From the NCBI RefSeq assembly GCF_017549005.1, contig NZ_JAFYYT010000047.1:62001-126000 (forward strand): 64,000 bases of DNA, read 5' to 3'. The position numbers and the translations under genes were made by a program. Below, in pieces: positions 19,096 through 44,024 of the stretch. This DNA is from Ruminococcus sp. (GTDB lineage: Bacteria > Bacillota > Clostridia > Oscillospirales > Ruminococcaceae). The notes beneath the pieces were generated by a model, which saw nothing but the letters and a program-made list of their open reading frames with translations, had not been told where the DNA came from and did not search any database. Positions within the stretch are counted from its first letter, which is position 1. Each line of letters begins with the position of its first letter.

Positions 19096-19140
19096 GATTA
19101 CTTCTTGTCAGCGATAGCAGCCTGAGCAGCCCTCCACCAA
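19096..19140. other. Left attachment junction (attL) in the ppdK 3' end
   Basis: The 14-base core GCAGCCTGAGCAGC (19117-19130) is identical to 44011-44024 inside ppdK. Read on the minus strand, the flank encodes AAQAAIADKK-stop, an orphan ppdK C-terminus equivalent to AAQAAISEKK-stop of the current gene. Host DNA lies left of the core, element DNA right of it. Confidence 0.8.
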
Positions 19141-20838
19141 CGCAGGCGCATAAGATGCCCCGAAAAGCCCGATTTTATGAGCTTTTTTGTCACCTTCCAC
19201 ATTGCACGTTTTCGGAGTTTTGTCATCGCCCGTGAAGTGCAGATACCAATCGAAGGAGTTCTCATTCACTACTATTTTTTCTACAAATGCTTCGATAACT
19301 GCCTCGGGAATATCTTCATCAGTGTCGAAATTAGTGTACCGTTCAAGAGCATATCTCAGCATAGTTATACGCTCGTTGTAGTCGGGAACATCATTTGTAT
19401 CCTTGACTTTCTCCGTCGGTGAGAGCTCGTTAATCTGCTCCTGCAAAGAAGCTATCTGCGTATCTACTTCCGACTTCATGTTCAAGAACTGCTCTTTGGT
19501 GATCTCATCGTCTGCCCTCATGGAGATGAGTTTGTTCAGACGCTTTTCCAGTTTTTCAAGCTCTGCCTTTTTCTGTGCGATGAGTTCGGTATTATCCTCA
19601 ACGACCTCTTCATCGTCGATATGTTTTTCGAGCATCTCCTCGGCAATGTCAAGTATCCTGTCGGTGTTCCTCAGAAACTCACGGAACAGGTTCTTCGCCA
19701 TGAACTGTAACTTCCAGCCGGGTATCATCTGAGATGTGCAGATACCGTCTATGGGCAGTCCCTTTTTGAGCCTTGTCTTTATAGTGCCGTTGCGTATCTG
19801 CGAGTAGCACATATACCCGTACTGCGTACCCTTTGATGTGGTGTGCCATACCTTGCGGTTGAATGTGCATCCGCAGGAGCATACCAGAAGCCTGCACCAT
19901 ACGTCCGAAACAGGCTTCTTGCCCTTTTCCTTGCGTCCTGTCTTGTTGGCAGGATTTTTCAGCCTTTTACTTTCCATTATCTCTTGCACCCTGTTGAATT
20001 CTTCCAGCGTAACGATAGTCTCGTGTTTACCCTCAACTCTCAGACGGTCTATCTCACCGAAATTGTTTATCTTCTTCTGTTCAAGGAAATCGGGAGTGAA
20101 CTGTTTGTGATATTCCAGTATGCCTGCGTAGAACGGGTTCTTCAGTATTTTGCTGATGTTGGATTCGTACCACCTGGTCTTGCCCATAGCAGTAAGGGCT
20201 CCCTCTTTTTCAAGCTCGAACTGTATCTGCCTTACGCCCATACCGTCGAGATACCAGTCGTAAATCTTACGCACCGTCTTAGCCTGCTCGGGATCAATAA
20301 CAAGTTCTTTGCCGACTCTGTTATAACCGAGGATATTTCCGTTGCCGTAATACACACCGTTTTCCATAGAGGTCTGCTGACCGCTTTTTACACGGATAGA
20401 AGTCTTACGGCTCTCGTCCTGAGCAAGCGTCGCCATTATAGTCAGACGAAGCTCGCCGTCACCCTCGAAAGTCCTGATATTATCATTGATGAAGAAGACT
20501 TCCACTCCTTGCTTTTTCAGGTCACGGGTGTATTGCAGAGTATCAACCGTGTTTCTTGCGAAACGTGATACTTCACGGGTAAGTATCAGGTTGAAGTCGC
20601 CGTTCTTCGCATCGCTGAGCATCTGCATGAACTGAGGACGTTTCTTCGCCGATGTTCCCGTGATACTCTCGTCAACATAACTGCGGACAAATGTCCATTC
20701 GGGATGCTGTTCAAGCAATGGTTTGTACCAGTCGAGCTGGTTTTCCAGAGCCGAGAGCTGTGCTTCGTGCTCGGTAGAAACTCTTGCATAGATGACAACG
20801 TTCTTCGGCATTGCGATTGTATTATATCCGTACATCAT
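19108..20838 (-). CDS. Large serine recombinase, C-terminus altered by integration
   Basis: 576 residues as read here. The resolvase domain has VVIYARVSTEHEAQ with nucleophile Ser21 and the later ILTREVSRFARN; a recombinase domain, a zinc ribbon (CRLLVCSCGCTF ... CYSQ) and a coiled coil (about 415-475) follow. AAGGAGG lies 4 and 7 bases before two adjacent ATGs; the second (20835) has the better spacing. The last residues CSGCYR and the stop are read from the attachment core and ppdK-derived host DNA. In a circular element the frame would run past the core into 48 more codons found at 43867-44010 (or 37678-37821), giving about 622 residues. Catalyses integration and excision at ppdK. Confidence 0.9.
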   Translation of the reverse strand: MMYGYNTIAMPKNVVIYARVSTEHEAQLSALENQLDWYKPLLEQHPEWTFVRSYVDESITGTSAKKRPQFMQMLSDAKNGDFNLILTREVSRFARNTVDTLQYTRDLKKQGVEVFFINDNIRTFEGDGELRLTIMATLAQDESRKTSIRVKSGQQTSMENGVYYGNGNILGYNRVGKELVIDPEQAKTVRKIYDWYLDGMGVRQIQFELEKEGALTAMGKTRWYESNISKILKNPFYAGILEYHKQFTPDFLEQKKINNFGEIDRLRVEGKHETIVTLEEFNRVQEIMESKRLKNPANKTGRKEKGKKPVSDVWCRLLVCSCGCTFNRKVWHTTSKGTQYGYMCYSQIRNGTIKTRLKKGLPIDGICTSQMIPGWKLQFMAKNLFREFLRNTDRILDIAEEMLEKHIDDEEVVEDNTELIAQKKAELEKLEKRLNKLISMRADDEITKEQFLNMKSEVDTQIASLQEQINELSPTEKVKDTNDVPDYNERITMLRYALERYTNFDTDEDIPEAVIEAFVEKIVVNENSFDWYLHFTGDDKTPKTCNVEGDKKAHKIGLFGASYAPALVEGCSGCYR

Positions 20839-21050
20839 ACCGCCTCCTTATCTTCTGTGTTTGGTATAGTATAGCGCGCATCTGCGCCGTTGTCAAGCCC
20901 TTTGCCGTAATATTCGTTGCAGATATTGCGGTAAACGTGCTTAGGTATCTCACCCTGTTCGTACAGAAGCCCGATCAGCTTCAAAGCTGCACCGATCTCC
21001 TGCTTGGTTGCATTCTGTGTGACATTCTTTCTTTTTCTCTCTGATGTCAT
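20835..21050 (-). CDS. Small protein upstream of the recombinase, unknown
   Basis: 71 residues, RBS GGAGGAAC before ATG. It has a basic N-terminus and a helical core (AALKLIGLLYEQGEIPKHVYRNI) ending in EYYGKGLDNGAD. Its TGA overlaps the ATG of the recombinase (ATGATG), so the two are co-expressed and coupled. Size, charge and position fit a recombination directionality factor or regulator, but no family is recognised. Confidence 0.7.
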   Translation of the reverse strand: MTSERKRKNVTQNATKQEIGAALKLIGLLYEQGEIPKHVYRNICNEYYGKGLDNGADARYTIPNTEDKEAV

Positions 21051-21107
21051 TTTTGTTCCTCCATAGCAGGTACTTCCCCTGCTTTCTCTCTTTTTATATT
21101 TCTGTTA

Positions 21108-21140
21108 ATCAGCCGAACCCCATCGGCTGATAATATTATA
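21108..21140 (-). promoter_or_regulatory. Promoter and palindromic leader of the recombinase operon
   Basis: A -10 box TATAAT (21135-21140, minus) is followed at once by a perfect palindrome ATCAGCCGA/TCGGCTGAT (21108-21131) in the untranslated leader. It could be an operator or an RNA hairpin. A -35 match is weak (TGGACT at 21159-21164). Confidence 0.55.
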
Positions 21141-21231
21141 GCGCACACCGATACAAAAAGTCCAGATTCATTGCGCATGAACTTTAGGTTGAATTTCATT
21201 TTTCCCCAGTGCAATTTATACTGGAAATATG

Positions 21232-21263
21232 AAAAGCACCAAGCGATAATGCTCAGTGCTTCA
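21232..21263 (-). terminator. Terminator of the MGMT gene
   Basis: Hairpin AAGCAC...GTGCTT with inner AGC/GCT, 15 bases after the MGMT stop, ending in a short T-run on the minus strand. Confidence 0.6.
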
Positions 21264-21278
21264 TAGGTATTTTTAGAT

Positions 21279-21773
21279 TTATAGTGCTTTCTCCAGTGTC
21301 AGCAACTTGATCTTTCTATCCAGACCTCCGGCGTATCCGGTCAGGCTGCCGTCTGTGCCGATAACTCTGTGACACGGGACAATGATCGAAATGGGATTAT
21401 GCCCGACAGCACCGCCAACTGCCTGGGCTGACATACGATGGGTACCTTTCTGCTCGGCGATGATAGCTGCGATCTCGCCATAGGTCATAGTATGTCCGTA
21501 TGGTATCGAAAGCAGTATCTCATAAACCGCCTTGCGGAACGGAGTTGCAGTCAAACTTATAGGCGGAGTAAAGTCGGGAGCTTTGCCGCCGAAATATGTA
21601 TTGAGCCATTTGATAGCCTGCGTGAATATCGGTAGTTCTTCTTCGGTGCTTTCAGATATCGGTTTATGGGGAAAGAATTTCTGTCCGTCGAACCATAAGC
21701 CTGTGAGTGATTCACCGCTGCTTGCGAGAGTGATGCTGCCGAGCGGAGAGTTATAGTGATAGATATAGTCCAT
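21279..21773 (-). CDS. ogt: Methylated-DNA-protein cysteine methyltransferase
   Basis: 164 residues from ATG 21773; a longer open frame (to 21917) overlaps the upstream gene and lacks support. The active-site motif PCHRV places the acceptor Cys134, preceded by the helix-turn-helix arginine-finger region PFRKAVYEILLSIPYGHTMTYGEIA. It transfers the O6-alkyl group from guanine to itself in one suicidal step. Ogt is used loosely for this class. It follows the nuclease-like gene by 10 bases and may share its transcript. Confidence 0.92.
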   Translation of the reverse strand: MDYIYHYNSPLGSITLASSGESLTGLWFDGQKFFPHKPISESTEEELPIFTQAIKWLNTYFGGKAPDFTPPISLTATPFRKAVYEILLSIPYGHTMTYGEIAAIIAEQKGTHRMSAQAVGGAVGHNPISIIVPCHRVIGTDGSLTGYAGGLDRKIKLLTLEKAL

Positions 21774-21783
21774 ATTTATGTAA

Positions 21784-22248
21784 TTAATGAAAACGAGAAA
21801 AATCTGTGCACAAGTATTTTTCAAATTGCTTCTTACAGTATTCTCTTTTTTTACCTGTTGTCTTATCAGTTCTATTGCCATTAAACCAGATGCTTCTTTT
21901 TCCTTTATTCTTTCCATTTTTATTGGTCACGCATTCATTAAGAAATTCTTCTGAAGATAATATCCACATTGAATCCAAACGTTCCGAGTAAAATACGAAA
22001 TAAAAATTTGGAGTTAATTCATGTGTAATTGCTGAAAACAAAGCCGCATCTCCGTCAGTGACCTTACTCGAACGGGCTTTGATCTGTATTTCTATAAAAG
22101 TCCCATCTGCCTTTTTGATAATACAATCTACTCCATGATCATCAACAAGAGGAAGATAAACATCTAATCCTTCCATTAGCATTTGACCAACAAGGTTATA
22201 TTCCATACGTTTTCCAAAGCTTGCAGAGTCTCTGAATGAGATGCCCAT
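21784..22248 (-). CDS. PD-(D/E)XK nuclease-fold-like protein
   Basis: 154 residues, RBS AGGAGG. The segment GKRMEYNLVGQMLMEG, then DDHGVDCIIKKADGTFIEIQIKAR gives an E-(x)n-D-(x)n-EIQIK arrangement typical of the PD-(D/E)XK fold found in DUF4365-like and group I intron-associated nucleases. Metal ligands would be the Asp of GVDC and the Glu of EIQIK. The C-terminus is lysine-rich. Role unknown; it may act in element maintenance or defence. Nuclease activity is inferred only from the motif. Confidence 0.55.
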   Translation of the reverse strand: MGISFRDSASFGKRMEYNLVGQMLMEGLDVYLPLVDDHGVDCIIKKADGTFIEIQIKARSSKVTDGDAALFSAITHELTPNFYFVFYSERLDSMWILSSEEFLNECVTNKNGKNKGKRSIWFNGNRTDKTTGKKREYCKKQFEKYLCTDFSRFH

Positions 22249-22428
22249 AATAATCCTCCTATCTTTATATTACGTTAGTTACAAATCGCTTTTACAATTA
22301 TGTTTGCTATATTATACAACACAAAATAAAAATAGTCAACCATAAGCAAAATTAATATGTTGCTTGTTTTATAGACGGCGAATACATATCTTAACACAAT
22401 GAATGCTAATGTAATTATTGATTTCTTC

Positions 22429-22848
22429 CCAGCAAGCTCGGTATCCCCGCATTACAATTTTGGAAAATTGAATGCTGTGATACATAGCTTGACAGGAGCT
22501 TTGCCCCTATGACCCCGACCGAGAAAATATACAAGAACTGATGCTATCCCTTGAACCACAAGTGAGCAAAAATACCGAGCCTGATGCTCGGTAACAGAGA
22601 TGCCACAAAGGGGTAAAAATCAACCTCAGCAAGCACGGCAATTCGTTCCCACGGAAACCCGTGATAACGCCTCGCATAGCTTGCTGAGGGATACTCCCCC
22701 AAGCCCCCGAATCATGAAACCAACAGCATGAAATTTGAATACCCCAAAAGAGAGTAAAAACCAATCTAGCAAGCACGGTATCATGTGGCCACAACTTTCG
22801 TGGAAACATGATACTAAGCTTGCTAGTGGGACACCCCTAAACCCCCGG
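22429..22848. repeat. Three related long palindromes with C-rich tails (oriT-like)
   Basis: Copies lie at about 22429-22520, 22624-22711 and 22766-22848. Each starts AGCAAGC(A/T)CGG, contains nested inverted repeats (copy 3: CTAGCAAGC/GCTTGCTAG, then GTATCATG/CATGATAC, then CCAC/GTGG), and ends with a tract such as CCCCTAAACCCCC or ACTCCCCCAAGCCCCC. This is the general design of relaxase-recognised origins of transfer, though REP-like or replication palindromes are possible. The 22249-22972 gap contains no gene besides these; a small hairpin CCGAGC/GCTCGG is at about 22577-22592. Confidence 0.55.
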
Positions 22849-22972
22849 ATTTTTGATAAGAAAAAAGAATATAATTATCCACTCTACGGAGCGTGGATTG
22901 ACGTGACTTCCGCACTAATTTATAATAAAAATATCATCAGAAAAACTGATAGACGGAAGGAGAAAAATCACT

Positions 22973-23662
22973 ATGAAAATACTTGTTCTTAATGGCAGTT
23001 CCAAGCGTGCGAAAAGTGACACGATGCACATCACACGAGCGTTCCTTGACGGCATGAAAGAAGCCGCTTCGCAGGATGTACACATCGTCAATATCATCGA
23101 CAAGCATATCGAATATTGTACGGGCTGTTTCACCTGCAAGCGCAACGGCGGAGAGTGTATCCATAACGATGATATGAAAGAGCTACTCGGTGAGGTTCTG
23201 GAGAGCGATCTTCTGCTGTTCAGCTACCCACTTTACTGCTACGGAATGCCTGCGCCGATGAAGGCTTTTGCTGACCGCACGATGCCGCTTTCAAGTATGG
23301 CGATGAAGAAGCAGGGCGACAGGTACGTTCATGTCGGACAGGCAGACTTTTCGCACCTGAAATACATGATGATCTGCGGCTGCGGATTCCCGAACAGCAA
23401 GCAGAATTTCGAGCCAGCGGTCATGCAGTTCAAGCTGATGTTCCCGAATAATCATACCATCATTACTGTACCCGAAAGTCCGATGTTCAATGCACCCGAA
23501 GCGGCAGAGGTAACTGTGCCGAGATTGGAGCTTGTGAAGCAGGCAGGAAAGCAGTATGCTGATACAGGCGAGATAGATGAAAAATTGCTTGCGGATATAT
23601 GCTCTCCGATGATACCCGAAGATGTGTTTGCGGGTATCTGCAATGGAGAGATCAAGGTATAA
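22973..23662 (+). CDS. NAD(P)H-dependent FMN reductase/flavodoxin-fold protein
   Basis: 229 residues, RBS GGAAGGAG. The N-terminal MKILVLNGSSKRAKSDT is the phosphate-binding loop for FMN, and CTGCFTCKRNGGEC is the cysteine pair seen in the iron-sulfur flavoprotein/NADPH-dependent reductase branch. It also has YPLYCYGMPAPMKAFADR. Likely a quinone, nitro-compound or disulfide reductase. It faces the UvrA-like gene convergently, sharing a hairpin. Confidence 0.8.
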   Translation: MKILVLNGSSKRAKSDTMHITRAFLDGMKEAASQDVHIVNIIDKHIEYCTGCFTCKRNGGECIHNDDMKELLGEVLESDLLLFSYPLYCYGMPAPMKAFADRTMPLSSMAMKKQGDRYVHVGQADFSHLKYMMICGCGFPNSKQNFEPAVMQFKLMFPNNHTIITVPESPMFNAPEAAEVTVPRLELVKQAGKQYADTGEIDEKLLADICSPMIPEDVFAGICNGEIKV

Positions 23663-23696
23663 AAACGGAAGCTGTCGCGATATGCAACAGCTTCCG
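23661..23696 (-). terminator. Terminator of the UvrA-like gene
   Basis: Stem CGGAAGCTGT/ACAGCTTCCG (23666-23675 with 23687-23696), five T on the minus strand. It also lies directly behind the FMN reductase gene on the plus strand. Confidence 0.8.
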
Positions 23697-23700
23697 CTTA

Positions 23701-25971
23701 TTATATGCTTTTCCTCAGATACTCCGCTGTTTTTGATTTCTCACAATAAAGCAGTTCCTCCGGCGTACCGCTGAACATGACCTGACCGCCGTTTGAGCCG
23801 CCCTCCGGTCCCATGTCGATGATATAATCCGCCTGTGCGATGAGTTCAAGACGATGCTCCACTATGATGACGGTGTTTCCGTTGTCCATGAGCTTTCGCA
23901 GGAGCGCAAGGAGCTTTTCGATATCCTTGCCGTGAAGTCCCGTACTCGGCTCATCAAGAACATAGACTTCGCCCTGTTTATACAGCTCGCTTGCCAGCTT
24001 CACACGCTGTACCTCACCGCCGGACAGCGTACTTGTTGGCTGTCCGAGGGTGAGATAACCAAGTCCTACATCGATCATACTTTGCAGAGCAGAACGTATC
24101 TTCTTGCTGTCAAAGAAGTCCATAGCTTGCTCGATCGTCAGGCTCATGACCTCCTCGATGTTCATTCCTTTGTAGGTATAGGAAAGCGCAGTCGGGTTAT
24201 AGCGATGACCGCCGCACTCTTCACAGGGAACGACAACAGGCTCGGCAAACGCCATATCGTAGGTGATCTGTCCCGTACCTTTGCAGACCGCACAGCCGCC
24301 CTTTGAATTGTAGCTGAACCAGCTTGCAGCCACACCGTTTTCCTTGCCGAATAGTTTTCTGATCTCGTCCATTACGCCCGTGTAGGTCGCAGGTGTGGAA
24401 CGGATAGATGTGCCGATCGCTTTCTGGTCGATGACGATAGCCTGCGGATTACGCTTCACAAATTCATGGCAAACAAGCGAGCTTTTGCCCGAACCTGCAA
24501 CACCCGTAACAGCAGTCAGAACGCCCTTCGGTATGGTCACGGTCACATTTTTCAGATTGTGACAATGGGCATTTTCGATCAGGAAGCCCTCTGACCATTG
24601 CAGCGGCGAGGTGTTGAGCTGAATCTTCTGCTGCATCATCTGTGCTGTCAGCGTATCCGCAGATTGCAAGCCATTCAGATCGCCCTGATAGACGATCCTG
24701 CCGCCCTGTGTTCCTGCATTTTCGCCAAGCTCGATGATATGGTCTGCAAGCTCTATCATCTGACGGCTGTGCTCCACGATGAACACATTGTTGTGCTTGT
24801 CGCGCAGGTCAATGAGCAGTTTCCCGATGCGCTCCGCATCGGCAGGGTGAAGTCCGGCAGTTGGCTCATCGAAGATGTAGGTGATGTTGGAAAGGCTACT
24901 GCCGAGATTGCGCACCATTTTGATACGCTGTAATTCACCGCCGGAAAGCGTATCGGTTCTTCTTGAAAATGAAAGATAGCCGATGCCCACATCTATCATT
25001 CTCCGGATATACGCCCTGATTTGCTTTGCAAGGGAAATCCCCCTCGGCTCGGTGATCTCATCAAGCACAGGCAGTAGTTCGGTCACTGTCATATCCATGT
25101 AATCTACGATATTCCGTCCGTTGATCTTTGAAGCGAGTGCGGCAGGATTCAAGCCCGTACCGCCGCAGGTCGGGCAATGCCCTTTCTCGACAAGAGACAT
25201 GATCTCGTCCTGCAAACTCTGTTTAAGCTTTGTGATGTCACGGCGGAGATACAGCCGATAGAAACGAGGTATAACACCCTCATAATCCACCTTATCAACT
25301 CGCCCTGTATTGTTGGAGCGTATTTCGACCTGTACTTTCTCTTTTGCGCCCTGTTTGAGTATCTCCATTTCCTCCGCTGAGAAGTCACGCAGTTTCTTGT
25401 GCGGATCAAGCAGCGGATTATTCTGATATAGGTAAGTCTGCCAGCCTGCCGAGAACTGACTGAACTGCAAAGCACCCTCTGCAAGAGTTTTGTCCGGATC
25501 GAACATTTTATCCTCGATCATAACAAGTTGTTCACCGATACCCGTGCAGTCGGGACACATACCCATGGGGTGATTGAAGCTGTACGCCATCGAACCGCCT
25601 GCCGATGGCTGACCGATACGGGAAAACAGCAGTCTCACAAGCGGAGCAACGTCGATCGCCGTTCCGACCGTTGAGCGTGAGCTTGCGCCCATAGCCCTCT
25701 GATCGACCACAATGGACGGTGTGAGATTGCGTATCTCTTCCACCTTCGGACGTTCATAGTGCGGCATCTTGTTACGCAGAAACAGCGGATAGGAACTTTG
25801 CCATTCTCTTGCACTCTCCACCGCTATCGTATCAAAGGCAAGGGAGCTTTTTCCCGAACCCGACACGCCTGCGAATACCACAAGCTGTCCTTTCGGTATC
25901 GTGACGCTGATGTGTTTCAGGTTGTTCTCGCTTGCGCCGATGATCTCTATATTGTCGTTTCGTTCGTTCAT
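23701..25971 (-). CDS. UvrA-like ABC protein (UvrA2 class)
   Basis: 756 residues from ATG 25971, chosen for the AGCAGGAGG site ahead of it. There are two ABC ATPase halves: Walker A GVSGSGKSS and GVAGSGKSS, signature LSGGELQRIKM and LSGGEVQRVKL, Walker B YIFDEPTAGLH and YVLDEPSTGLH. Two zinc knuckles (CPDC/CPTCGGTG and CAVCKGTG/CEECGG) are present. It is shorter than UvrA of nucleotide excision repair (about 940), as in UvrA2/DrrC-type proteins that lack the UvrB-binding insert and often confer drug tolerance. Substrate unknown. Confidence 0.88.
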   Translation of the reverse strand: MNERNDNIEIIGASENNLKHISVTIPKGQLVVFAGVSGSGKSSLAFDTIAVESAREWQSSYPLFLRNKMPHYERPKVEEIRNLTPSIVVDQRAMGASSRSTVGTAIDVAPLVRLLFSRIGQPSAGGSMAYSFNHPMGMCPDCTGIGEQLVMIEDKMFDPDKTLAEGALQFSQFSAGWQTYLYQNNPLLDPHKKLRDFSAEEMEILKQGAKEKVQVEIRSNNTGRVDKVDYEGVIPRFYRLYLRRDITKLKQSLQDEIMSLVEKGHCPTCGGTGLNPAALASKINGRNIVDYMDMTVTELLPVLDEITEPRGISLAKQIRAYIRRMIDVGIGYLSFSRRTDTLSGGELQRIKMVRNLGSSLSNITYIFDEPTAGLHPADAERIGKLLIDLRDKHNNVFIVEHSRQMIELADHIIELGENAGTQGGRIVYQGDLNGLQSADTLTAQMMQQKIQLNTSPLQWSEGFLIENAHCHNLKNVTVTIPKGVLTAVTGVAGSGKSSLVCHEFVKRNPQAIVIDQKAIGTSIRSTPATYTGVMDEIRKLFGKENGVAASWFSYNSKGGCAVCKGTGQITYDMAFAEPVVVPCEECGGHRYNPTALSYTYKGMNIEEVMSLTIEQAMDFFDSKKIRSALQSMIDVGLGYLTLGQPTSTLSGGEVQRVKLASELYKQGEVYVLDEPSTGLHGKDIEKLLALLRKLMDNGNTVIIVEHRLELIAQADYIIDMGPEGGSNGGQVMFSGTPEELLYCEKSKTAEYLRKSI

Positions 25972-26006
25972 TTCTGCGCCTCCTGCTGAATAATTCATGT
26001 ATGGTA

Positions 26007-26035
26007 ATTATACCATATCACGGGCGAAAGGTCAA
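26007..26035 (-). promoter_or_regulatory. Promoter of the UvrA-like gene
   Basis: TTGACC (26030-26035), 17 bases, TATAAT (26007-26012) on the minus strand; the -10 lies in the palindrome GGTAATTATACC. Confidence 0.8.
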
Positions 26036-26137
26036 TCAGCAGATAAGGGCTTCATTTCAATCACAGCGCTATGCACTGGGGAAAATCCACATTTTGCTGC
26101 GCCTTTCACAAGAATTATTACAATCATTCCGATATGC

Positions 26138-26166
26138 TGGACTCCAGTTGTTTTATCGGATATAAT
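26138..26166 (+). promoter_or_regulatory. Promoter of the DUF6061-like/SSB pair
   Basis: TGGACT (26138-26143), 17 bases, TATAAT (26161-26166). Confidence 0.6.
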
Positions 26167-26200
26167 GGATTCACGATAAAACTTATGGAGGTACACAGAT

Positions 26201-26410
26201 ATGTTGAAAACACCCGAATTGGCAATGCCGAGAACGAACAAGATCACTACCGTTTGCAACGGTAAGCGTGAGGTTTGGACGGACTATGAGGATGCCAAGG
26301 CATATTTCCTTGAACTCATGATGTCCACGGACGGCGTGGAGCACGATCGAGCAGAGTGCGTATATATTCAGCTCATGCACGGACTTGATGAGTGTTCGGA
26401 CGAGGATTGA
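26201..26410 (+). CDS. Small conserved element protein (DUF6061-like)
   Basis: 69 residues. The pattern MLKTPELAMPRTNKITTVCNGKREVW, then AKAYFLELMMSTDG and an acidic end, is familiar from small proteins in clostridial mobile elements next to SSB; function unknown. RBS TATGGAGG. It lies 12 bases before the SSB gene. A second, interrupted copy lies at 29630-29845. Confidence 0.7.
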   Translation: MLKTPELAMPRTNKITTVCNGKREVWTDYEDAKAYFLELMMSTDGVEHDRAECVYIQLMHGLDECSDED

Positions 26411-26422
26411 AAGGAGCATACT

Positions 26423-26752
26423 ATGTTGAACAAGATCATGATGTCAGGCAGGCTTCTGACCGAGCCTGCTGTTACAACCAAAGACGACCTCAAATACTGC
26501 AAATTCAGCATCGCTGTTGAGCAGCCTAAGCAGAAAGGTATTGATGCTGTCGAGACAGACACATTCACCTGCCTTGCGTTTGATGACAATGCAAGTGCAG
26601 TGAGCTTTCTCTATTCAAAAGGCGGAACGATCACCTTCGTTGGTTCACTCAGGAATGCTCCCGATAACACAGCTGTTCTCATCGTAGAAGAACTGCACTT
26701 TCAGAACAAGTTTGCTGTTAAGGTGGATACTAATTCAGGTCAGCTTTTTTGA
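26423..26752 (+). CDS. Single-stranded DNA-binding protein-like
   Basis: 109 residues, RBS AAAGGAG. The opening MLNKIMMSGRLLTEPAVTT, KYCKFSIAVEQ and DTFTCLAFDDNA are OB-fold SSB strands; GGTITFVGSL continues the barrel. It lacks the usual acidic C-terminal tip and is shorter than housekeeping SSB (about 150-180). Likely a mobile-element SSB involved in replication or transfer of the element. Confidence 0.75.
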   Translation: MLNKIMMSGRLLTEPAVTTKDDLKYCKFSIAVEQPKQKGIDAVETDTFTCLAFDDNASAVSFLYSKGGTITFVGSLRNAPDNTAVLIVEELHFQNKFAVKVDTNSGQLF

Positions 26753-26842
26753 TATTGTAGGCGGTATGCTCTCAGGCGAACGGAAAAGGTCTGTAATGGC
26801 TTTCGGATGTGGTTTCCGTTCTGTTATCCATAAATATGAAAC

Positions 26843-26875: not shown

Positions 26876-26923
26876 ATATAATGGAACAGTCATTAACTAA
26901 TATGGATTATAGTCTTTTATTCA

Positions 26924-26952: not shown

Positions 26953-26990
26953 TTAAGCAAATAAAAGCCTTTGCTAGGGAGCGTGATAAA

Positions 26991-36382: not shown

Positions 36383-36386
36383 GTTC

Positions 36387-37409
36387 TTACCTCATGTTTT
36401 CCGCCAGTACGGGATACGAAAGAATCTCCTGTGGCAGACGCTTATTATTTTGCAGTATATGAGTGATCTGTTCCTGTTCATCAACCATAAATTTGAGTAG
36501 TATCCCAGACATTTCAGGAATGATGCATCGCTTATCCTCACTGTCGGGGAGCTGAATGTTACGGCTCAGTTCCAGCATTTTTTTATATACCGGAAGGAAC
36601 AATTCGATATGTAGTTCCTCTGCTGCTTTGCAAAGCCGCAGAAAGATATCAAAGCCGGCTCTGTCGATATCACCGCAATACAGAAAACGAATTGTATCAG
36701 CCCCAAGATAAGCAGCATAGGAACGGAATTTATCCTTACCCGTGATGTCATTGCCCTGCCCGAAAATCACACCATCAATTTGAGTATCAAATAATGTGTT
36801 AGCTTGGGATTCATACATAAGGCGACGAATATTGAACCATATATCCTTGTTTTCACAAATGAGTAAGGTCATAGTTGACTTTCGGACGGGGATATAATCC
36901 GAAAAGCACTGTTCAGGCGTTTCATAATATCGAAGCATATCTCCTGTGATTCCGATAGCTTCCAATAATCTTAAATGATTATCCAATTCCTTCTCTTCAC
37001 CGAAGATGGCAAAAGAACGCTCACGCCTCGACATCATATCATTGCCCTTTTGATTGGTAAGCCATTCGGTCAAACGGCACAAAAACGCCCTGTTATTGAC
37101 AAACTGCATTCGATTACGAAGCAGATATCCATTTGCTGAAAGTCTCGGATGGAGTGCATTGATCTCATCTGGTGACACCTGTATCGTGTTTTCAATGCAG
37201 ATAGTGTATCGCATAAACAAAGGATTTTTCTGATTTCCGTTTGTTCCACTGCTCTTGATAGGCACTAATACACCTTGATTGGTAAGCTCTTTTATCTGTT
37301 CGTTAAGTTGTTCCGAATCTGAGCATAATCCGCTGAGTTCCTCCAATGTGATCCGTTTACGAGGAAAATCCTGCAATGCTTTATACAGTGTATTACTAGG
37401 CTTACTCAT
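36387..37409 (-). CDS. jetD: Wadjet nuclease JetD (Toprim-type)
   Basis: 340 residues, first gene of the operon. An N-terminal winged-helix/arm region is followed by a Toprim-like core: LLICENKD with Glu186, and FLYCGDIDRAGFDIF with Asp247 and Asp249. JetD cleaves DNA that the SMC complex has pinched. The gene order D-A-B-C, with D first, differs from the A-B-C-D order of type I and fits another Wadjet subtype (type II in my recollection, not verified). Start ATG with GAGGTGG upstream. Confidence 0.88.
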   Translation of the reverse strand: MSKPSNTLYKALQDFPRKRITLEELSGLCSDSEQLNEQIKELTNQGVLVPIKSSGTNGNQKNPLFMRYTICIENTIQVSPDEINALHPRLSANGYLLRNRMQFVNNRAFLCRLTEWLTNQKGNDMMSRRERSFAIFGEEKELDNHLRLLEAIGITGDMLRYYETPEQCFSDYIPVRKSTMTLLICENKDIWFNIRRLMYESQANTLFDTQIDGVIFGQGNDITGKDKFRSYAAYLGADTIRFLYCGDIDRAGFDIFLRLCKAAEELHIELFLPVYKKMLELSRNIQLPDSEDKRCIIPEMSGILLKFMVDEQEQITHILQNNKRLPQEILSYPVLAENMR

Positions 37410-37525
37410 ACATTGCCACCTCTAATCAAAATATGGAATAGTATATACATATTGTAGCATAATTGGGTCGAAAAAGCAAGCTGTCAGCTGTAAGAAACAG
37501 ATTACTCGAAGTTCGAGCGTTATTA

Positions 37526-37567
37526 TAAAAAAACAGGCAGATACATCGTTTGAAGTATCTGCCTGTT
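37526..37567 (-). terminator. Terminator at the end of the element-2 operon/upstream of jetD
   Basis: Stem AACAGGCAGATAC/GTATCTGCCTGTT with T-run on the minus strand. It would stop transcription entering element 1 from the right. Between it and jetD (37410-37525) is AT-rich DNA that should hold the jetD promoter; I see no convincing match. Confidence 0.75.
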
Positions 37568-37640
37568 CTGTTTCATAGCTCACTGTATAGGTCTTTACAT
37601 AATAGTTGTTGAAAAACTTCTATATTATTACCGACTTAGA

Positions 37641-37829
37641 CTGTGAGAGCCTTATCATTAACTATTCTATCGGCTCAGACATACACGTTTACACGGATAT
37701 CACGCCAATTGTGGAATTCACGCTTCTCGGACTTAGCCCGGAAGTACATCTCTGCATCGCCCTGAAATAGCGTAAAATCGCCGATTTTGATATAGTCGTG
37801 AATTACTTTCCTTCGTTGATTGCAGCCTG
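37641..37829. repeat. Internal attachment junction (right arm of element 1)
   Basis: 189 bases matching 43830-44018 with 14 mismatches counted by eye and no gaps, ending in core GCAGCCTG (37822-37829). Read on the minus strand in the ppdK frame it gives QAAINEGK-stop, a ppdK-like C-terminus. In the recombinase frame it gives the 48-codon tail. Confidence 0.85.
37675..37824 (-). pseudogene. Detached recombinase C-terminal segment (element 1 copy)
   Basis: Open minus-strand frame reading GCNQRRKVIHDYIKIGDF and on to RDIRVNVYV-stop (TGA 37675-37677). It is in the same frame, relative to the shared core, as the end of the recombinase at 19117. Compared with the copy at 43864, differences outside the ppdK-overlap are four silent (D, H, A, L codons) and three replacing (K/R, H/Q, Q/H), as expected of coding DNA under constraint. 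It has no start of its own. Confidence 0.7.
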
Positions 37830-37934
37830 CTGGGCGCTCAGGGCAGCTCAATAAACCCAATACCAGAAATCAAGTTTATCGTTTTTAATTGATATGTAAA
37901 TATTTCAATATCTATGATAATAAGTACTACGTAA

Positions 37935-39539
37935 TCATTTTTGCTCTATAAAGCAGATAGAATACCCAAATCTTGTACGTTCTAGGCTTTGACAAGTAAG
38001 CATTAAGTTTACTTTGCTGAAGAATGGCAGTTTTTTGACTGAGCAATCTGATTTTTCTGCAATAATCGCATAGACTACTTCATATTCATTTGGATTTGGC
38101 TTTCCCTTATAACTAAAAACATTATCACCGAGTTTGTCTTTAACCTTTAAATATACTTGCTCTCTAAATAATTCATCAGACAAAAAACACTCAGCAGATA
38201 CTCTTCCTTGAGAAAACAGATGACTTAATTGAGATGAATTAGCTCTTTTTTTCACATGAATCATCATCTTGTTGTTGACGAACAAGTCACAAGACTCAAT
38301 TTGCTTTGCGCTACCTTTTAAACTAATGAGTTTTTTGTCCATTAAGCAAATTGCAGCATCATTCTGAGCCACTCTTTCATTATATGCTCCTTCACTTTCA
38401 TTTGTATCGCACGATGGAAGCGTGATAGGACATAACGGAAGATTACTTATATAGTCATTAACTTCTTTAAAAAAGTCGTTCTCAATATAATACCAAGATC
38501 CGTTCCATATTATATATGTTTTATTAGATAATATACATTCCCAAACTATTGATGAAAAAACATTGCAGATAGCATTTTGTGCGCCATTTGAATCTATTGT
38601 CATCAATCTATCCCTGCGAATTTTATCAATTATTCTTTTGGTGTCGTTTGAGTCTAGCTTTTCAGAATATTCCAGTAAATTCGGATCAAATGAATAATTA
38701 CTAACATCCTTCAAGTCCTTTCCGACTCCTGAAAAACAATAACCTTCAATTAATTCCGGATCAATTATATCTGGAGGAGCAATATACATATTATGAATAT
38801 CCTTGTTTATAAGACTCTCTCCTAAACAATCATTCAGTTTTTCCTTTAACTCTGTATCCCGGATTTCATTAATATTATCAACCCATTTGAAACCAATTCT
38901 TTTGTATCTATCGTCTTGATATGCTTCTAAATATCTTTCTAGTTTCTCACCCAATTCGTTTATGTCCATAGGAACAGAAACGGATAATGTATCTTTTCCA
39001 CTAATTGTATTACCCAAATCTTCATCATACGGTTTTCCAGTAATAGAACGAAGAATATCACTGTAAGCATTTAGATCAAACTCTTCTTGTGACGTTCTGC
39101 GACTTGCTTGTTGCTGAGTTGATACTATCATATCTTCTATTACAGCTGATTGAATGCTTCTCATTTGTTTTTCTTCAATCATGTTCAGTGCAGCTTTTAA
39201 ACCAAAATTCCGTTCAAACTTATCGGCACGCAATAAGCTTTTTCCATATCCTAAAACTACAGCCATAAATCTGCTTCTTATTTTAACAATAATTGCTGCT
39301 TTATTTGATGTATTCGCAGATAGATCTATTTTGCTTTCAGATATTTCATCGACCAAAGTTTTCCATTTGGGTTGTGTATGTTTACTTTTAGAGTAGACTA
39401 TTATCCCCTTATACTTTATGCCCTCTCTAATATTAACAGCATTTATATCAGGACCTTTTTCGTATGCATCAGTATAGTCTTTTACTGTTTCTTTAAACAG
39501 CACAATATTTAGGTTGATTGTAGGCTTTTTCTCATCCAT
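37935..39539 (-). CDS. DUF6119 (TIGR04141) sporadically distributed protein
   Basis: 534 residues, the last gene of the element-2 operon, 43 bases after the HAD gene. The C-terminal MMIHVKKRANSSQLSHLFSQ followed by GRVSAE, and the earlier YIIWNGSWYYIENDFF, are recognisable as the TIGR04141/DUF6119 family, scattered among defence islands with no agreed activity. No nuclease or ATPase motif stands out. The N-terminal TINLNIVLFKETV also fits the family. Confidence 0.8.
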   Translation of the reverse strand: MDEKKPTINLNIVLFKETVKDYTDAYEKGPDINAVNIREGIKYKGIIVYSKSKHTQPKWKTLVDEISESKIDLSANTSNKAAIIVKIRSRFMAVVLGYGKSLLRADKFERNFGLKAALNMIEEKQMRSIQSAVIEDMIVSTQQQASRRTSQEEFDLNAYSDILRSITGKPYDEDLGNTISGKDTLSVSVPMDINELGEKLERYLEAYQDDRYKRIGFKWVDNINEIRDTELKEKLNDCLGESLINKDIHNMYIAPPDIIDPELIEGYCFSGVGKDLKDVSNYSFDPNLLEYSEKLDSNDTKRIIDKIRRDRLMTIDSNGAQNAICNVFSSIVWECILSNKTYIIWNGSWYYIENDFFKEVNDYISNLPLCPITLPSCDTNESEGAYNERVAQNDAAICLMDKKLISLKGSAKQIESCDLFVNNKMMIHVKKRANSSQLSHLFSQGRVSAECFLSDELFREQVYLKVKDKLGDNVFSYKGKPNPNEYEVVYAIIAEKSDCSVKKLPFFSKVNLMLTCQSLERTRFGYSICFIEQK

Positions 39540-39582
39540 TTTATCACCTCTTTATTTAGCTTCTTATTTATCAATGAATACA

Positions 39583-40620
39583 CTATTCTATATTTCCAGG
39601 AATAAATGCCTTCATTTCGCTGATAGTTTCTTCCATATCTTTTTTCATCTTTTTAGAAGCTTGGTGTTTAGTCAAATCATACATTTGCTCAAATGCTTTA
39701 ATAGAGTTGAATAACGCCGCATCAACATTTAATACCATCTGCTCAGTTTTCATCTTTTCTCTAGCAGCAACAGCATCAATAATTTGCTTGACATATTTTG
39801 TTAGTTCACTGCGAGATGAATAATCCGCAGGTGCAAAATAATTGATTCTTCCATCATTAAAAAGCTGATACACTTTTTTACGTATATTTTTATCAGGATC
39901 ATAAACACCTATTGAGTACCCACCTTTACTCTTCACAAGACGCATACAAGGAATATCTGTTGCACTGTCACCAATGTAAACAATGTTTTCATATGGTATG
40001 TAAAGCTTATTTTCTGGCATGGAATCATTAACTCTGTCATCATATTCTTCAAATATTCCCTTGGCTATTCTGAAAATGAACTGGGTTTTATTTGTATAGT
40101 TAACAGCTTGGGCAGGCCATTCAGCAACACCATCTGGAGTATAATAGTATGATGAAGCATAAATTCGCTTGAATTTATCTGCTATCCTGCTTCCCTCTAT
40201 GATTTCTTTTAGACCCGAAGATATAATATAATGCTCAAGAATGATTCCTTGTTTCTCTGCGTACTTATCCATTCTGTCAAACCAGTCTTCTACACCTTTG
40301 TATAAGGCAACATCCTTTCCTATTTCTCGGAAATATTCTTTGCGGATTGACTTTCTCTTAAACTTTGAATAATGAAGCAGCTGATACATCCACGCAAGAT
40401 TTGTTTCCATGAGATTATCTTTAGCCAGCTTATTAGACTCTTCCCAAAAGCTCGCTGCATCTATTTCAAAAGAAGGAATAAGCGTGAATGTCTGCATATC
40501 ATCTGGAGAGAGGGTCTTATCAAAGTCATAACAAATAGCCATACGTGGCTTTCGGTTCTTGATTGCTTCGATTTCCTTCTCTTTTGCTTCCTGAGCATTG
40601 GCAGTGTTATCATTTACCAT
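39583..40620 (-). CDS. HAD-superfamily phosphatase
   Basis: 345 residues. Motif I DFDKTLS (Asp32, Asp34), motif II YIISSG, and the acidic motif NIVYIGDSATDIP complete the HAD active site. A C-terminal helical extension (about residues 275-345) with KKMKKDMEETISEM is extra. The family removes phosphate from small molecules or proteins. It lies 22 bases after the 61-residue gene, in the RloAB operon, so the substrate may be a nucleotide or signalling molecule linked to defence (inference). Confidence 0.85.
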   Translation of the reverse strand: MVNDNTANAQEAKEKEIEAIKNRKPRMAICYDFDKTLSPDDMQTFTLIPSFEIDAASFWEESNKLAKDNLMETNLAWMYQLLHYSKFKRKSIRKEYFREIGKDVALYKGVEDWFDRMDKYAEKQGIILEHYIISSGLKEIIEGSRIADKFKRIYASSYYYTPDGVAEWPAQAVNYTNKTQFIFRIAKGIFEEYDDRVNDSMPENKLYIPYENIVYIGDSATDIPCMRLVKSKGGYSIGVYDPDKNIRKKVYQLFNDGRINYFAPADYSSRSELTKYVKQIIDAVAAREKMKTEQMVLNVDAALFNSIKAFEQMYDLTKHQASKKMKKDMEETISEMKAFIPGNIE

Positions 40621-40642
40621 AAGTTACCCCTTTCTCTCTGGT

Positions 40643-40828
40643 TCATAAACCTAAGTATTTGATCATAGATAACATATTCTCAATTCTGTCAGCCTGAGCG
40701 GCACAGGCATCTACACGTGCTTTTTGCTGTTCTTTCTGAATTGGGTTCAGAAGGGGATTATTGTCTATCGCTTGTTTCATCATGTCTTTTATCATTTCAT
40801 GCTGCATATGTTTTTCAATTTCGTTCAT
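40643..40828 (-). CDS. Small helical protein of the RloAB operon
   Basis: 61 residues, entirely helical, Met/Gln-rich (HMQHEMIKDMMKQAIDNNPL ... DRIENMLSMIKYLGL), starting 6 bases after rloB with GAGGTGAT ahead. No family recognised. It may be a regulator or an adaptor between RloAB and the HAD protein. Confidence 0.65.
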   Translation of the reverse strand: MNEIEKHMQHEMIKDMMKQAIDNNPLLNPIQKEQQKARVDACAAQADRIENMLSMIKYLGL

Positions 40829-40834
40829 GCAATA

Positions 40835-41485
40835 TCACCTCTTTGATATCTTCAATTTTATTTCTCCAACCAAATTATGCACAGTAGTACAAGGACACAT
40901 TTCTGACGGCTTGTCCTTACCGATTGCTATGTGCTCATTGTACTTCTGTTGAGCGAGTTTTACTGCCTGTCCTTCGTCTCCATAACGATTAAGCTTCTCA
41001 TAGATATCTTTATCCGACTTAGCATATTTCTGACCAGTAACTCTTTTGAAGGTCTGTGCAAAGCCGTTGCAACAAGCGACAGAATCCTGATATGTAGGCA
41101 TAGCGCCGAAGTAAGCGTTGAACCATTCCTCGATACATGGATTAGTCCAGCCGACGTTAATGCCTTTATCCTCAGCTTGGCGAATTATCTCGTCAAAGTT
41201 CTTGACCTTATCACGATCAAAGATTATCCATATCTCGCCGTACTGCGGATTGATGGAGGCAAGATTTCTGGCTTCATCTACAAGATTATTGGATTTGGTT
41301 TTAATGACCTTAATCACCAACTTGCCTTGTAATTCTTTCGGAATAGAATCTCTTAGTCCATACATATAGTTCTGTTCAGTTTCTTCCGTATCAGTAACTA
41401 TGAAGTAGTAACCTAATTCTGGAACTCTTCTTTTGGCAAGTTGATCACGAGTTTTCCGTTTTCCGTTTCTTTCAACATGAGCCAT
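40835..41485 (-). CDS. rloB: RloB-like (AbiLii-type) protein
   Basis: 216 residues. The segment GYYFIVTDTEETEQNYMYGL (catalytic-type Glu) and IWIIFDRDKVKNF give a Toprim-like core of the RloB/AbiLii family, and a final conserved WTNPCIEEWFNAYFG is typical of RloB. It is the second gene of RloAB/AbiL two-gene phage defence systems, where the ATPase senses infection and the Toprim-type protein is the probable effector. It begins 3 bases after rloA. Confidence 0.88.
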   Translation of the reverse strand: MAHVERNGKRKTRDQLAKRRVPELGYYFIVTDTEETEQNYMYGLRDSIPKELQGKLVIKVIKTKSNNLVDEARNLASINPQYGEIWIIFDRDKVKNFDEIIRQAEDKGINVGWTNPCIEEWFNAYFGAMPTYQDSVACCNGFAQTFKRVTGQKYAKSDKDIYEKLNRYGDEGQAVKLAQQKYNEHIAIGKDKPSEMCPCTTVHNLVGEIKLKISKR

Positions 41486-41488
41486 ACT

Positions 41489-42757
41489 TTATTCCCCCTT
41501 GAACATATCAAAATGTTTCAGAGTCGGTATTGCTCCGTACTTACCCAACAGATAGTTCTTCTCGTAATTCTCGTCCTTGCGGATTTTAACTCCATCTTCA
41601 TCTACAAAATCAGCTAATGAGAAAAGATATGATATTCCATTTGAATCCTTTTCAGTGAACCAGATCTCATCTCTTCTGAGGATATTACCGTTAAGCTGCC
41701 AAGAGTCATGAGATGTAAAGATAAGTTGGGCATGATTTGTATTGATCTCAGGATCGAGAAACGTAATAACAAATGCTCTTACAAGCAGGGGGTGAAGTCT
41801 GGCATTAAGCTCGTCAATAAAGAAAACGCCACCCGTTGACAGCACATCCTGTAACATTGGATACAATGCAAACATTTTAAGCGTTCCGGCTGATTCATGC
41901 TGAAGCGGGATAGAGGTGGTCTGATCAGAGTCTATCATTTTATGAACAGCGTCAATTCTGAGCTTCTTATCCGAATCATCGATTTCAGACTTGATAACTT
42001 CAACATTAAAACCAATTATTGAAGGATCGAATGACGAGAAGTAATCAACTACTTTCTGTCTAACCTTTTCATCTTCTTCAAATCCTTCCGGTATAAGCTG
42101 AGATAAGAAAAAGTTCTCTATTGGTCTGCCAAAATCCGCAAAATCATTATGCACAAACCAATCCCTTATAAACTTAAGCTTTGCTATTTTTAGCTTAGCA
42201 CCAAGTGAGACAACCAAGGTTTCCTTTTCTAATGCGATAATCAAGTTCTCTCGACTTTTAGCAGGAATACCTGCAAAATCTAACTCTTCTCCATTACGAT
42301 AGAAAATACGCTTGAAATCGCCTCTTGAAGACTTTGACTTATAGTTTAACCATTCCTCACATACGCCATTACTGTCGACAGTGAATCCATAATTATAAGT
42401 CTTTGCTCCATTTTCCTCTGAGTCAATAAAATACACTTCAAATGAAGATTCTGCATTTTTGCTTGTATTATCGAATAAAAACGGAGTCGGCTTAAAAAAT
42501 CTCGAATTCTTTTTTGAATCAGATTCATCGCCATAATCGAGTGAATTGATAACATACGTTGACATATATCTGAAAGCTTCCTGAACATTAGACTTTCCGC
42601 TTGCATTCGCACCAAATATAGCTGCAACAGGCAATACCTTTTCATTTGCAATAGAAACAACATGATTATTAAATTCAGAAATCTTTGTTGCCGATAAATC
42701 TAGTATTGTATCATCCTTAAATGATTTGAAATTCTTAAAATTGAACTGTAATAACAT
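41489..42757 (-). CDS. rloA: RloA-like AAA/ABC-type ATPase
   Basis: 422 residues from ATG 42757 (AAGGAGG ahead). N-terminal FKNFKSFKDDTILDL and Walker A GANASGKS (residues 49-56) are the AAA15/21 OLD-like ATPase signature. Late GGVFFIDELNARLHPLL is the Walker B/D-loop and LIFTSHD the switch. Partner of RloB; the arrangement parallels AbiL and, more distantly, the AriA-AriB pair of PARIS. First gene of a probable five-gene operon. Confidence 0.88.
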   Translation of the reverse strand: MLLQFNFKNFKSFKDDTILDLSATKISEFNNHVVSIANEKVLPVAAIFGANASGKSNVQEAFRYMSTYVINSLDYGDESDSKKNSRFFKPTPFLFDNTSKNAESSFEVYFIDSEENGAKTYNYGFTVDSNGVCEEWLNYKSKSSRGDFKRIFYRNGEELDFAGIPAKSRENLIIALEKETLVVSLGAKLKIAKLKFIRDWFVHNDFADFGRPIENFFLSQLIPEGFEEDEKVRQKVVDYFSSFDPSIIGFNVEVIKSEIDDSDKKLRIDAVHKMIDSDQTTSIPLQHESAGTLKMFALYPMLQDVLSTGGVFFIDELNARLHPLLVRAFVITFLDPEINTNHAQLIFTSHDSWQLNGNILRRDEIWFTEKDSNGISYLFSLADFVDEDGVKIRKDENYEKNYLLGKYGAIPTLKHFDMFKGE

Positions 42758-42791
42758 AATGTAAAGCCTCCTTTTTTTCTCCTTACTATAT

Positions 42792-42842
42792 ATTATACTC
42801 AAAAAGCGCAAAATGTCAACACTTAATTGAGAAAAATTCTCA
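42792..42842 (-). promoter_or_regulatory. Promoter and palindrome of the RloAB operon
   Basis: TTGACA (42814-42819), 16 bases, TATAAT (42792-42797) on the minus strand. Directly upstream is the palindrome TGAGAA-AAA-TTCTCA (about 42828-42842), a candidate operator. Confidence 0.8.
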
Positions 42843-42868
42843 TTCAGATGTTATTTTTGCTTTCGTAT

Positions 42869-42902
42869 CAAAAAATCCTCATAGAAACGACCTATGAGGA
42901 TT
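42869..42902 (-). terminator. Terminator of the AbiEi-like gene
   Basis: Stem ATCCTCATAG/CTATGAGGAT with a T-run on the minus strand. It separates the AbiEi-like gene from the RloAB operon. Confidence 0.85.
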
Positions 42903-42943
42903 CTGGCTTATCACGTTTTACCAATATATACCATAAAAAACTA

Positions 42944-43657
42944 TCAGACTCCTATCCTTCTCCTAAGATTTCTTCTATCCCAATCGCTCTTCACCTGAAT
43001 TTCAGAAATCGTCGGATGTTTGTAGACAGACCTTGCAGAAAGGAACTCACCGAGCGTATTAGGAATATGATGAGTATCAAGTATCATACGAAGAAAAGCT
43101 ATGGCGGATTTAGGATAACCAACCTTTTCTATCACTTCATGCGTGACCTCATCATTGTATGATCGTAAGAACTTTGTATACATCTTTATCAACTTAGTAT
43201 GATCCACTGTACATATTTTATAATAGTTGGCACAGACTTCGAGCATAGCTATTGTATCAGTATACAGAGTAGAATATTCTATTTCATGCCTGATAAACTG
43301 CACATTACCTATCTTCATCTTGCTGTCACGCAGCAGAGAAGTATAAACTGTTCTGGTTTTGTAATCGCCTAACATGATTCCGGTGTCATGAAACAGCTTC
43401 TCACCGACTTCAAAACCTCGTCCCGAGGCAGTGAATATCTCAACTATATCATCATTTGTCAGCTTAAAGCTAAAGGGTGTATATTTGGGACGGCAATACA
43501 TACCGTTGCACAGTCTGATCAGCTTCTTTTCTTTGCAGGCTCTTTCAAGCAGCTTATAATAGTATGCCTCGCTCCAGCGATTGTTACGCTCTTTTTCTTT
43601 ATAGTATTTGCTTGCAATTATAGGTTCAAGCGGATCAAAGTCACAAAGCTCGATCAA
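42944..43657 (-). CDS. AbiEi-like (DUF6088) winged-helix protein
   Basis: 237 residues if translation starts at TTG 43657. WSEAYYYKLLERACKEKKLIRLCNGMYCRP is the winged-helix start of AbiEi-type antitoxins/DUF6088 proteins, and GNVQFIRHEIEYSTLYTDTIA follows. AbiEi proteins repress their own promoter; no AbiEii toxin is adjacent here. Start is uncertain: no ATG or GTG lies in frame, GAGGTGAT sits too far upstream for the TTG and would suit an ATT codon at about 43675. A solitary regulator or an orphan antitoxin are both possible. Confidence 0.7.
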   Translation of the reverse strand: MIELCDFDPLEPIIASKYYKEKERNNRWSEAYYYKLLERACKEKKLIRLCNGMYCRPKYTPFSFKLTNDDIVEIFTASGRGFEVGEKLFHDTGIMLGDYKTRTVYTSLLRDSKMKIGNVQFIRHEIEYSTLYTDTIAMLEVCANYYKICTVDHTKLIKMYTKFLRSYNDEVTHEVIEKVGYPKSAIAFLRMILDTHHIPNTLGEFLSARSVYKHPTISEIQVKSDWDRRNLRRRIGV

Positions 43658-43704
43658 AAGTTCAGTTACCGCAGTAATAAGGCATCACCTCGCACTTTTT
43701 CTTG

Positions 43705-43783
43705 ATTATATCATGTTAAAAGAAAAGTGTCAAGTAAAAACGCATTTTACGCAAAAATCTGTCAACTAAAACACACTTTTACG
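43705..43783 (-). promoter_or_regulatory. Promoter with tandem operator-like repeats
   Basis: TTGACA (43728-43733), 17 bases, TATAAT (43705-43710) on the minus strand. The block at 43728-43751 recurs at 43760-43783, 32 bases (about three helical turns) away, with 18 of 24 bases the same, including a second TTGACA. This suggests an autoregulatory operator pair. Confidence 0.75.
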
Positions 43784-43806
43784 TAATCTGCCTATATTTC
43801 AAGACA

Positions 43807-43840
43807 CAAAAAAGCTCTCACAGCCGAAACTGTGAGAGCC
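43807..43840 (-). terminator. Terminator behind the current ppdK
   Basis: Stem GCTCTCACAG/CTGTGAGAGC (43814-43823 with 43830-43839), T-run on the minus strand. It is carried by the element arm and replaces the original hairpin at 19029-19062, to which it is similar. Confidence 0.8.
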
Positions 43841-44024
43841 TTATCATTAACTATTCTATCGGCTCAGACATACACGTTTACACGGATGTCACGCCAATTA
43901 TGGAATTCACGCTTCTCGGACTTAGCTTTGAAGTACATCTCCGCATCGCCATGAAACAGCGTAAAATCGCCGATTTTGATATAGTCTTGAATTACTTCTT
44001 TTCGCTTATTGCAGCCTGAGCAGC
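43830..44024. other. Right attachment junction (attR) with ppdK-restoring arm
   Basis: The core GCAGCCTGAGCAGC (44011-44024) equals the one at 19117-19130. The arm left of the core supplies the last codons of ppdK (ISEKK-stop) and a new terminator, and in another frame the recombinase tail. Confidence 0.82.
43864..44010 (-). pseudogene. Detached recombinase C-terminal segment (element 2 copy)
   Basis: Forty-eight codons (44010 down to 43867) reading NKRKEVIQDYIKIGDF and on to RDIRVNVYV, stop TGA 43864-43866. Joining the core here to the core at 19117 keeps the recombinase frame (GCSGC then NKRKE). Its first codons overlap the end of ppdK in a different frame. Confidence 0.72.

Follow-up and report, generated by a model that had tools for sequence, protein, structure and literature searches.

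Where does a recombinase gene end when the site at which its element inserts lies within its own coding sequence? The question is raised by a 64,000-nucleotide stretch of Ruminococcus sp. DNA (NCBI RefSeq assembly GCF_017549005.1, contig NZ_JAFYYT010000047.1, positions 62,001 to 126,000 of the forward strand), hereafter the window, in which a large serine recombinase gene runs through one copy of a short core and a second copy lies in the host gene ppdK. The best explanation of the observations as a whole, to which we assign a probability of about 0.88, is that the recombinase gene carries the phage attachment site (attP) and that integration cuts off its C-terminal tail. The features concerned are as follows.

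19108 to 20838, minus strand: large serine recombinase gene truncated by integration; 576 residues, of which the final two, with the stop codon, are host ppdK DNA.
19117 to 19130, minus strand: core of the left attachment site (attL) within the recombinase coding sequence; exact 14-mer, two copies in the window.
19098 to 19116, minus strand: native ppdK 3′ end (..AIADKK and stop) stranded past the attL core, matching the native ppdK ends of element-free relatives.
43992 to 46619, minus strand: ppdK, the host target gene, with its 3′ end donated by the element.
44011 to 44024, minus strand: core of the right attachment site (attR) within ppdK; exact 14-mer.
43864 to 44010, minus strand: tail 1 of the recombinase, detached; 48 codons closed by a stop in the recombinase frame, the first bases doubling as the ppdK end (..AISEKK).
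43813 to 43841, minus strand: terminator-like stem-loop past tail 1, read by eye.
37675 to 37821, minus strand: recombinase tail 2, open in the recombinase frame, at the right end of an element termed E1.

The recombinase carries Pfam Resolvase (E 1.1e-29) and Recombinase (E 2.7e-25) domains and matches the overall fold of serine integrases; serine recombinase activity on short attachment sites, independent of host factors, is putative, the shared 14-bp core being the part of it that was observed. The core, GCAGCCTGAGCAGC, has exact matches in the window at 19117 and 44011 only. Past the copy at 19117–19130, the recombinase frame adds Y, R and a stop codon, all in host DNA that matches native ppdK ends, as a sequence-only reading of the stretch had proposed. 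That reading had also placed 48 in-frame codons behind the core at 44011–44024, ending at 43864, and the frame is indeed open from 44010 to 43864, where it stops. Rejoining the two parts arithmetically gives a gene of 574 + 48 = 622 codons. The ppdK gene ending at tail 1 uses another frame than the recombinase, and its usual type of end is preserved. Tails 1 and 2 differ at 14 of 147 bases, six of them within the first eight codons; beyond codon 8, four of the six differing codons are silent and two conservative (H to Q, K to R), in line with the earlier statement that differences outside the ppdK-overlapping codons are mostly of these kinds. A crossover further to the right, past the ppdK stop codon, was considered and rejected for the window because the stretch following the attL core matches native ppdK ends.

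The gene was found in two states, whole in phage records and cut in bacteria. Six relatives of the recombinase came from IMG/VR records (L262–L267). Four (L262–L265) hold the whole gene, of 609 or 614 residues, with the core inside and the tail in frame; these are assembled records flanked on both sides by phage genes, and may represent free virions. L262 equals L263 and L264 equals L265 over the compared residues, leaving two distinct recombinases. L264 lies in the middle of a record of 121,045 bases with a 120-base exact terminal repeat, with dUTPase and anaerobic ribonucleotide reductase genes on one side and endolysin, tail-fibre and reverse-transcriptase genes on the other, and the surroundings of L262 resemble these. 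An exact terminal repeat was sought in three other phage records and none was found, and ppdK is absent from the examined stretches around the whole phage genes. The L266 recombinase is interrupted by the contig end, and that of L267 is truncated, ending in ppdK-like sequence past the core. Two bacterial bins (L036 and L037) carry recombinases of 568 residues that share 99.3% and 98.9% of 556 compared residues with L262 and stop just past the core in ppdK-like DNA. In the 600 bases leading up to the core their DNA identity to L262 is 0.98 and 0.95, respectively; in the 54 bases that follow the core it is down to 0.24 and 0.48.

A genome-contig scan with the window recombinase placed this pattern in a wider family (best 80 of 86 relatives kept, 79 loci). 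Comparable rows had at least 45% identity, started by residue 60 and reached residue 530; with partial copies and loci fetched twice removed, 62 rows (61 loci plus the window) were classed by core position. The core lies within the reading frame in 47 of the 62, at 95–116 bases past the residue-533 anchor in 46 of these and at 203 in L074. Truncation was found in 39 of the 47, with a stop at a median of 9.7 codons past the core (range 3–53) and no in-frame tail within 400 bases; in the other eight the tail follows the core directly, open in five and with a stop in three. In nine of the 62 rows the tail is joined through a short spacer; a core was recognized past the stop codon in three of these nine (L051, L072, L081), as well as in L087, a partial copy that is not part of the tree, and none was recognized in the remaining six. 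Six rows were unclassed. One, L077, falls within the tail-joined clade; the other five, in which no core was recognized and some of which lie at the end of a contig, group with the core-in-frame rows. Counting L077, ten tail-joined rows make up a single clade (support 100/98), the root being uncertain and the outgroup branch very long. The window tail is homologous to the contiguous C-terminus of this sister clade, three members of which (L078, L079, L088) face ppdK tail to tail; elements whose recombinase gene remains uncut thus use this target gene too. Truncation at the core also occurs in the isolate genomes R. flavefaciens FD-1 and 007c and Clostridiales NK3B98. The family occurs in Oscillospiraceae, other Clostridia and phages; plasmid matches comprised one record at 38% identity. 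In L025, L028 and L030 the recombinase is directly joined to a stop-bearing tail, that of L028 being of another subtype; these loci probably arose by insertion beside an older element, with exchange of tails.

Tails are more widespread than recombinases in the genus: they were found in 40 of 125 genomes, up to six per genome (82 hits), and recombinases at E up to 1e-150 in nine of 100. After exclusion of eight short or weak hits, 74 tails were examined. A recognizable core lies just upstream of 65, the pattern being unrecognized upstream of the other nine, and all 65 cored tails, which are related sequences and not independent, are in the recombinase frame, so the observation is no chance effect. 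Open tails make up 54 of the 65, with 14 behind ppdK and 40 behind other left halves; the remaining 11 comprise five attached to ppdK with a host-like stop, one cut by a contig end, two joined to a recombinase with stops and three others with stops. Of 16 genomes with a truncated recombinase, eight also carry a ppdK-joined tail. In seven it is open in the frame that matches the genome's own recombinase, which for two genomes, from a clade with a shorter linker, is the other frame, as would be expected; in one it has a stop. In four of the eight, the contigs bearing recombinase and tail are equal in size and therefore probably one and the same. Of the other eight genomes, one has a tail away from ppdK only and seven have no tail, bins being fragmented. 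Non-ppdK left halves recur between genomes, and two kinds, X1 and X2, also adjoin ppdK ends of the native type in 4 of 19 pattern hits (L286, L291, L293, L302), so they look like the left ends of elements. The idea that the X1 left half is a tRNA-linked site was rejected, as ARAGORN found no tRNA in seven loci.

Substitutions in the tail follow the recombinase frame. Over its last 40 codons, the ratio of non-synonymous to synonymous differences (pN/pS) is 0.378 in that frame and 1.02 and 1.06 in the others (24 distinct tail DNAs, 268 pairs, which are not independent). In a larger set, tails labelled as ppdK-attached gave 0.36 and other tails 0.29, the split using a loose pattern that labels three tails behind left half X3 as ppdK; one abundant subtype of non-ppdK tails gave 0.08 (28 copies, 24 distinct). 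In an AlphaFold model of a natural whole protein (L038), the tail forms a strand-helix-strand unit, with the predicted local distance difference test averaging 68–84 in ten-residue blocks, a low-confidence linker before it and an overall predicted template modelling score of 0.39. Serine integrases from the PDB align up to about model residue 535 (rows 7–533), short of the tail. The tail is a genuine recombinase C-terminus, and its substitutions point to protein-type constraint. This agrees with the claim of the sequence-only reading that the tail is translated at some time, and its further claim that integration shortens the enzyme accords with the whole genes of four phage records and the near-identical bacterial copies that stop just past the core. 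It had pointed to homologues as the place to look for the 48-residue segment, which is indeed contiguous in the sister clade and in those four records.

The second tail of the window belongs to a further set of features.

19117 to 37829, no strand assigned: element E1, with the recombinase at its left end, tail 2 at its right end and Wadjet-type jetABCD genes at 29891–37409; G+C 44.5%.
37822 to 37829, minus strand: internal core (CAGGCTGC) at the boundary of E1 and E2.
37822 to 44024, no strand assigned: element E2, without a recombinase, genes at 37935–43657; G+C 35.8%.

The presence of a second, open tail copy at 37821–37675 had been reported correctly, and its interpretation is corrected here: tail 2 marks the right-hand end of an additional element and is no stray duplicate. 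Two circles are therefore possible, of about 24.9 kb or 18.7 kb. E2 encodes DUF6119, HAD/PDC-S34, RloB/AbiLii, AAA/AbiLi and AbiEi-like proteins. With the Wadjet type III-like jetABCD operon at 29891–37409 and matches to AbiEi, AbiLi, AbiLii and PDC-S34 at 39583–43657, the ppdK site resembles a defence island. Elsewhere in the window's own assembly (G000), a second native-type ppdK end is joined to the X1 left half (C25:1267, L302) and another tail lies at a contig edge (C48:353, L011); these may reflect another array or a strain mixture.

The E1/E2 tandem fits a pattern of cassette arrays bounded by core and tail. Tandem cassettes of this type, with boundaries about 5–11 kb apart, occur in the window (37675–37829) and at L256, L257, L259 and L260, and no serine recombinase was found in the inspected stretches of these arrays. 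At L256, tblastn with 15 recombinase queries detected none in stretches of about 5.7 and 10.9 kb, which carry metabolic genes. Cargo across the arrays includes defence, ABC transporter, dockerin cellulase and reductase genes, making the ppdK 3′ end a hotspot at which defence and metabolic cassettes accumulate. Recombinase-less cassettes with a coding tail may descend recently from complete elements, or their tail may be used beside a recombinase. Six other ppdK 3′ ends (L112, L121, L128, L131, L135, L146) bear distant tail-like segments in a different frame (hidden Markov model scores 15–23), which perhaps come from other recombinase families sharing the site.

The two states of the gene, the site of the cut, the frame and the protein-type constraint on the tail are read directly from the DNA. 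From these we infer the following course. In free DNA, whether phage or circular, the recombinase would consist of a body, an attP-bearing linker and, at the C-terminus, a tail about 40 residues long. On integration into the 3′ end of host ppdK, the gene would be severed at the core, the body staying on one side and gaining some host codons and a stop, and the tail moving to the other, where its first bases would double as a replacement 3′ end for ppdK. Body and tail would be reunited in frame on excision. The long form would be the integrating one and the short form would differ in activity, direction or stability, in which case truncation would act as a built-in switch favouring the integrated state. 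Why serine integrases do not reverse their own reaction is a central question about them, usually answered by a separate directionality factor. Given the truncation, we consider a real functional switch fairly likely, at odds of a little under two to one.

Several observations weigh against this course. Past the core, a host-like stretch containing a stop in frame is present in five of the 20 tails attached to ppdK, so restoration on excision is not expected for every copy; all three directly joined copies of the L025, L028 and L030 group have a stop in the tail; and the tails of recombinase-less cassettes are also constrained, where a simple model predicts no constraint. In genome G485 (L120, L291), where ppdK lacks a tail, a run of 312 identical bases follows both ppdK and an X2 left half situated 4.3 kb from it. 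For the window's element no excised circle was observed, and among 21 short genome-contig records an exact terminal overlap of 10–399 bases was found in none. The earlier claim that circularization restores about 622 residues thus stands as arithmetic, and is qualified by the stop-bearing copies and by the circle not having been seen for the window. Host-like ppdK 3′ DNA with an in-frame stop on the tail side of the core was noted at L029/L127 (FD-1), L187, L202, L211 and L238; in FD-1 the post-core stretch is identical on both sides, and both look native. Later conversion of attR from attL would explain these patterns.

The rival that survives best accepts the truncation and treats it as a by-product, attP having drifted into a dispensable part of equivalent long and short forms. 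The loss is confined to the last 48 residues and leaves the catalytic and DNA-binding domains intact, and solved serine integrases end their alignment before the tail; set against this, the tail sequence is kept across distant homologues and constrained as protein, and we judge this rival unlikely, if well worth keeping in mind. More doubtful still is a bolder proposal, in which the tail acts as a control domain that can be detached and moves together with the attachment site. A cassette landing beside a shortened recombinase would re-arm the enzyme, and the array would control a shared recombinase; because of this re-arming, purifying selection would act on the tails of recombinase-less cassettes. 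If instead the tail were needed as DNA, as an extended attP arm or as a ppdK 3′ end with terminator, its replacement of the ppdK end, its stem-loop and its retention in cassettes without a recombinase would be accounted for; the codon structure of its substitutions and its presence at boundaries away from ppdK make this very improbable. We give even less credence to the short form being the natural complete enzyme, with flanking attP DNA open by accident: 39 of 47 core-in-frame chromosomal copies do end just past the core, and the five stop-bearing attR copies of 20 would give the short form even after excision, but whole genes in phage records, the contiguous tail of the sister clade and the frame-specific constraint oppose it. 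An assembly or binning artefact is scarcely credible, since, although many homologues are metagenome bins and L038 is filed under Alistipes, the same truncation occurs in isolates (FD-1, 007c, NK3B98) and many independent assemblies.

If cutting of the gene at its own attP is true, self-splitting integrases, so far archaeal tyrosine enzymes, would come to include serine enzymes of bacteria. One enzyme would then exist in matched long and short forms tied to its free and integrated states, making the effect of the C-terminus on direction, activity and stability directly testable, and for gut and rumen bacteria and their phages a docking site inside the inserting enzyme's gene could be a built-in switch. 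In the full-text literature searched we found no account of a serine integrase whose own gene contains attP, although absence is thereby unproven. A large survey of serine recombinases selected its candidates by how far they lay from the predicted site and by the length of the coding sequence (PMC10083194).

The closest parallel lies in the suicidal integrases of SSV-type elements, pTN3 and pT26-2, in which attP lies within the integrase gene and integration splits it, a trait called exclusive to archaea in a review (PMC8371274). The window family shares the placement of attP and the splitting; it differs in being a bacterial serine recombinase, the archaeal enzymes being tyrosine recombinases, and in losing only its last 48 residues, whereas the archaeal split separates the catalytic part. 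Integration-dependent immunity in mycobacteriophages and their relatives is similar in that attP lies in a gene whose product is truncated at the C-terminus when integrated; 20–35 C-terminal residues of the repressor are lost through a stop at attL (PMC8092301, PMC9262239). In that system the truncated gene encodes a repressor and integration relies on a tyrosine integrase, whereas here the cut gene is the serine recombinase itself, and its family's tails end in VNVYV, VNVFI and the like, in contrast to the -AA ends given for lost repressor C-termini in PMC8092301. The window enzyme shares domain order and fold with the large serine recombinases of SPbeta, A118, Bxb1 and phiC31 up to about residue 535, and its family differs from them in having the extra C-terminal tail. 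To our knowledge, attP lies outside the coding sequence in those four systems. The Ccr recombinases of the staphylococcal cassette chromosome (SCC) are serine enzymes like that of the window, although matches to CcrB and CcrC were weak, far below the cut-off. SCC forms tandem cassettes at the 3′ end of one gene, some without a recombinase, and the window elements are arranged in the same way; unlike SCC, they target ppdK, and every boundary bears a piece of the recombinase's own coding sequence.

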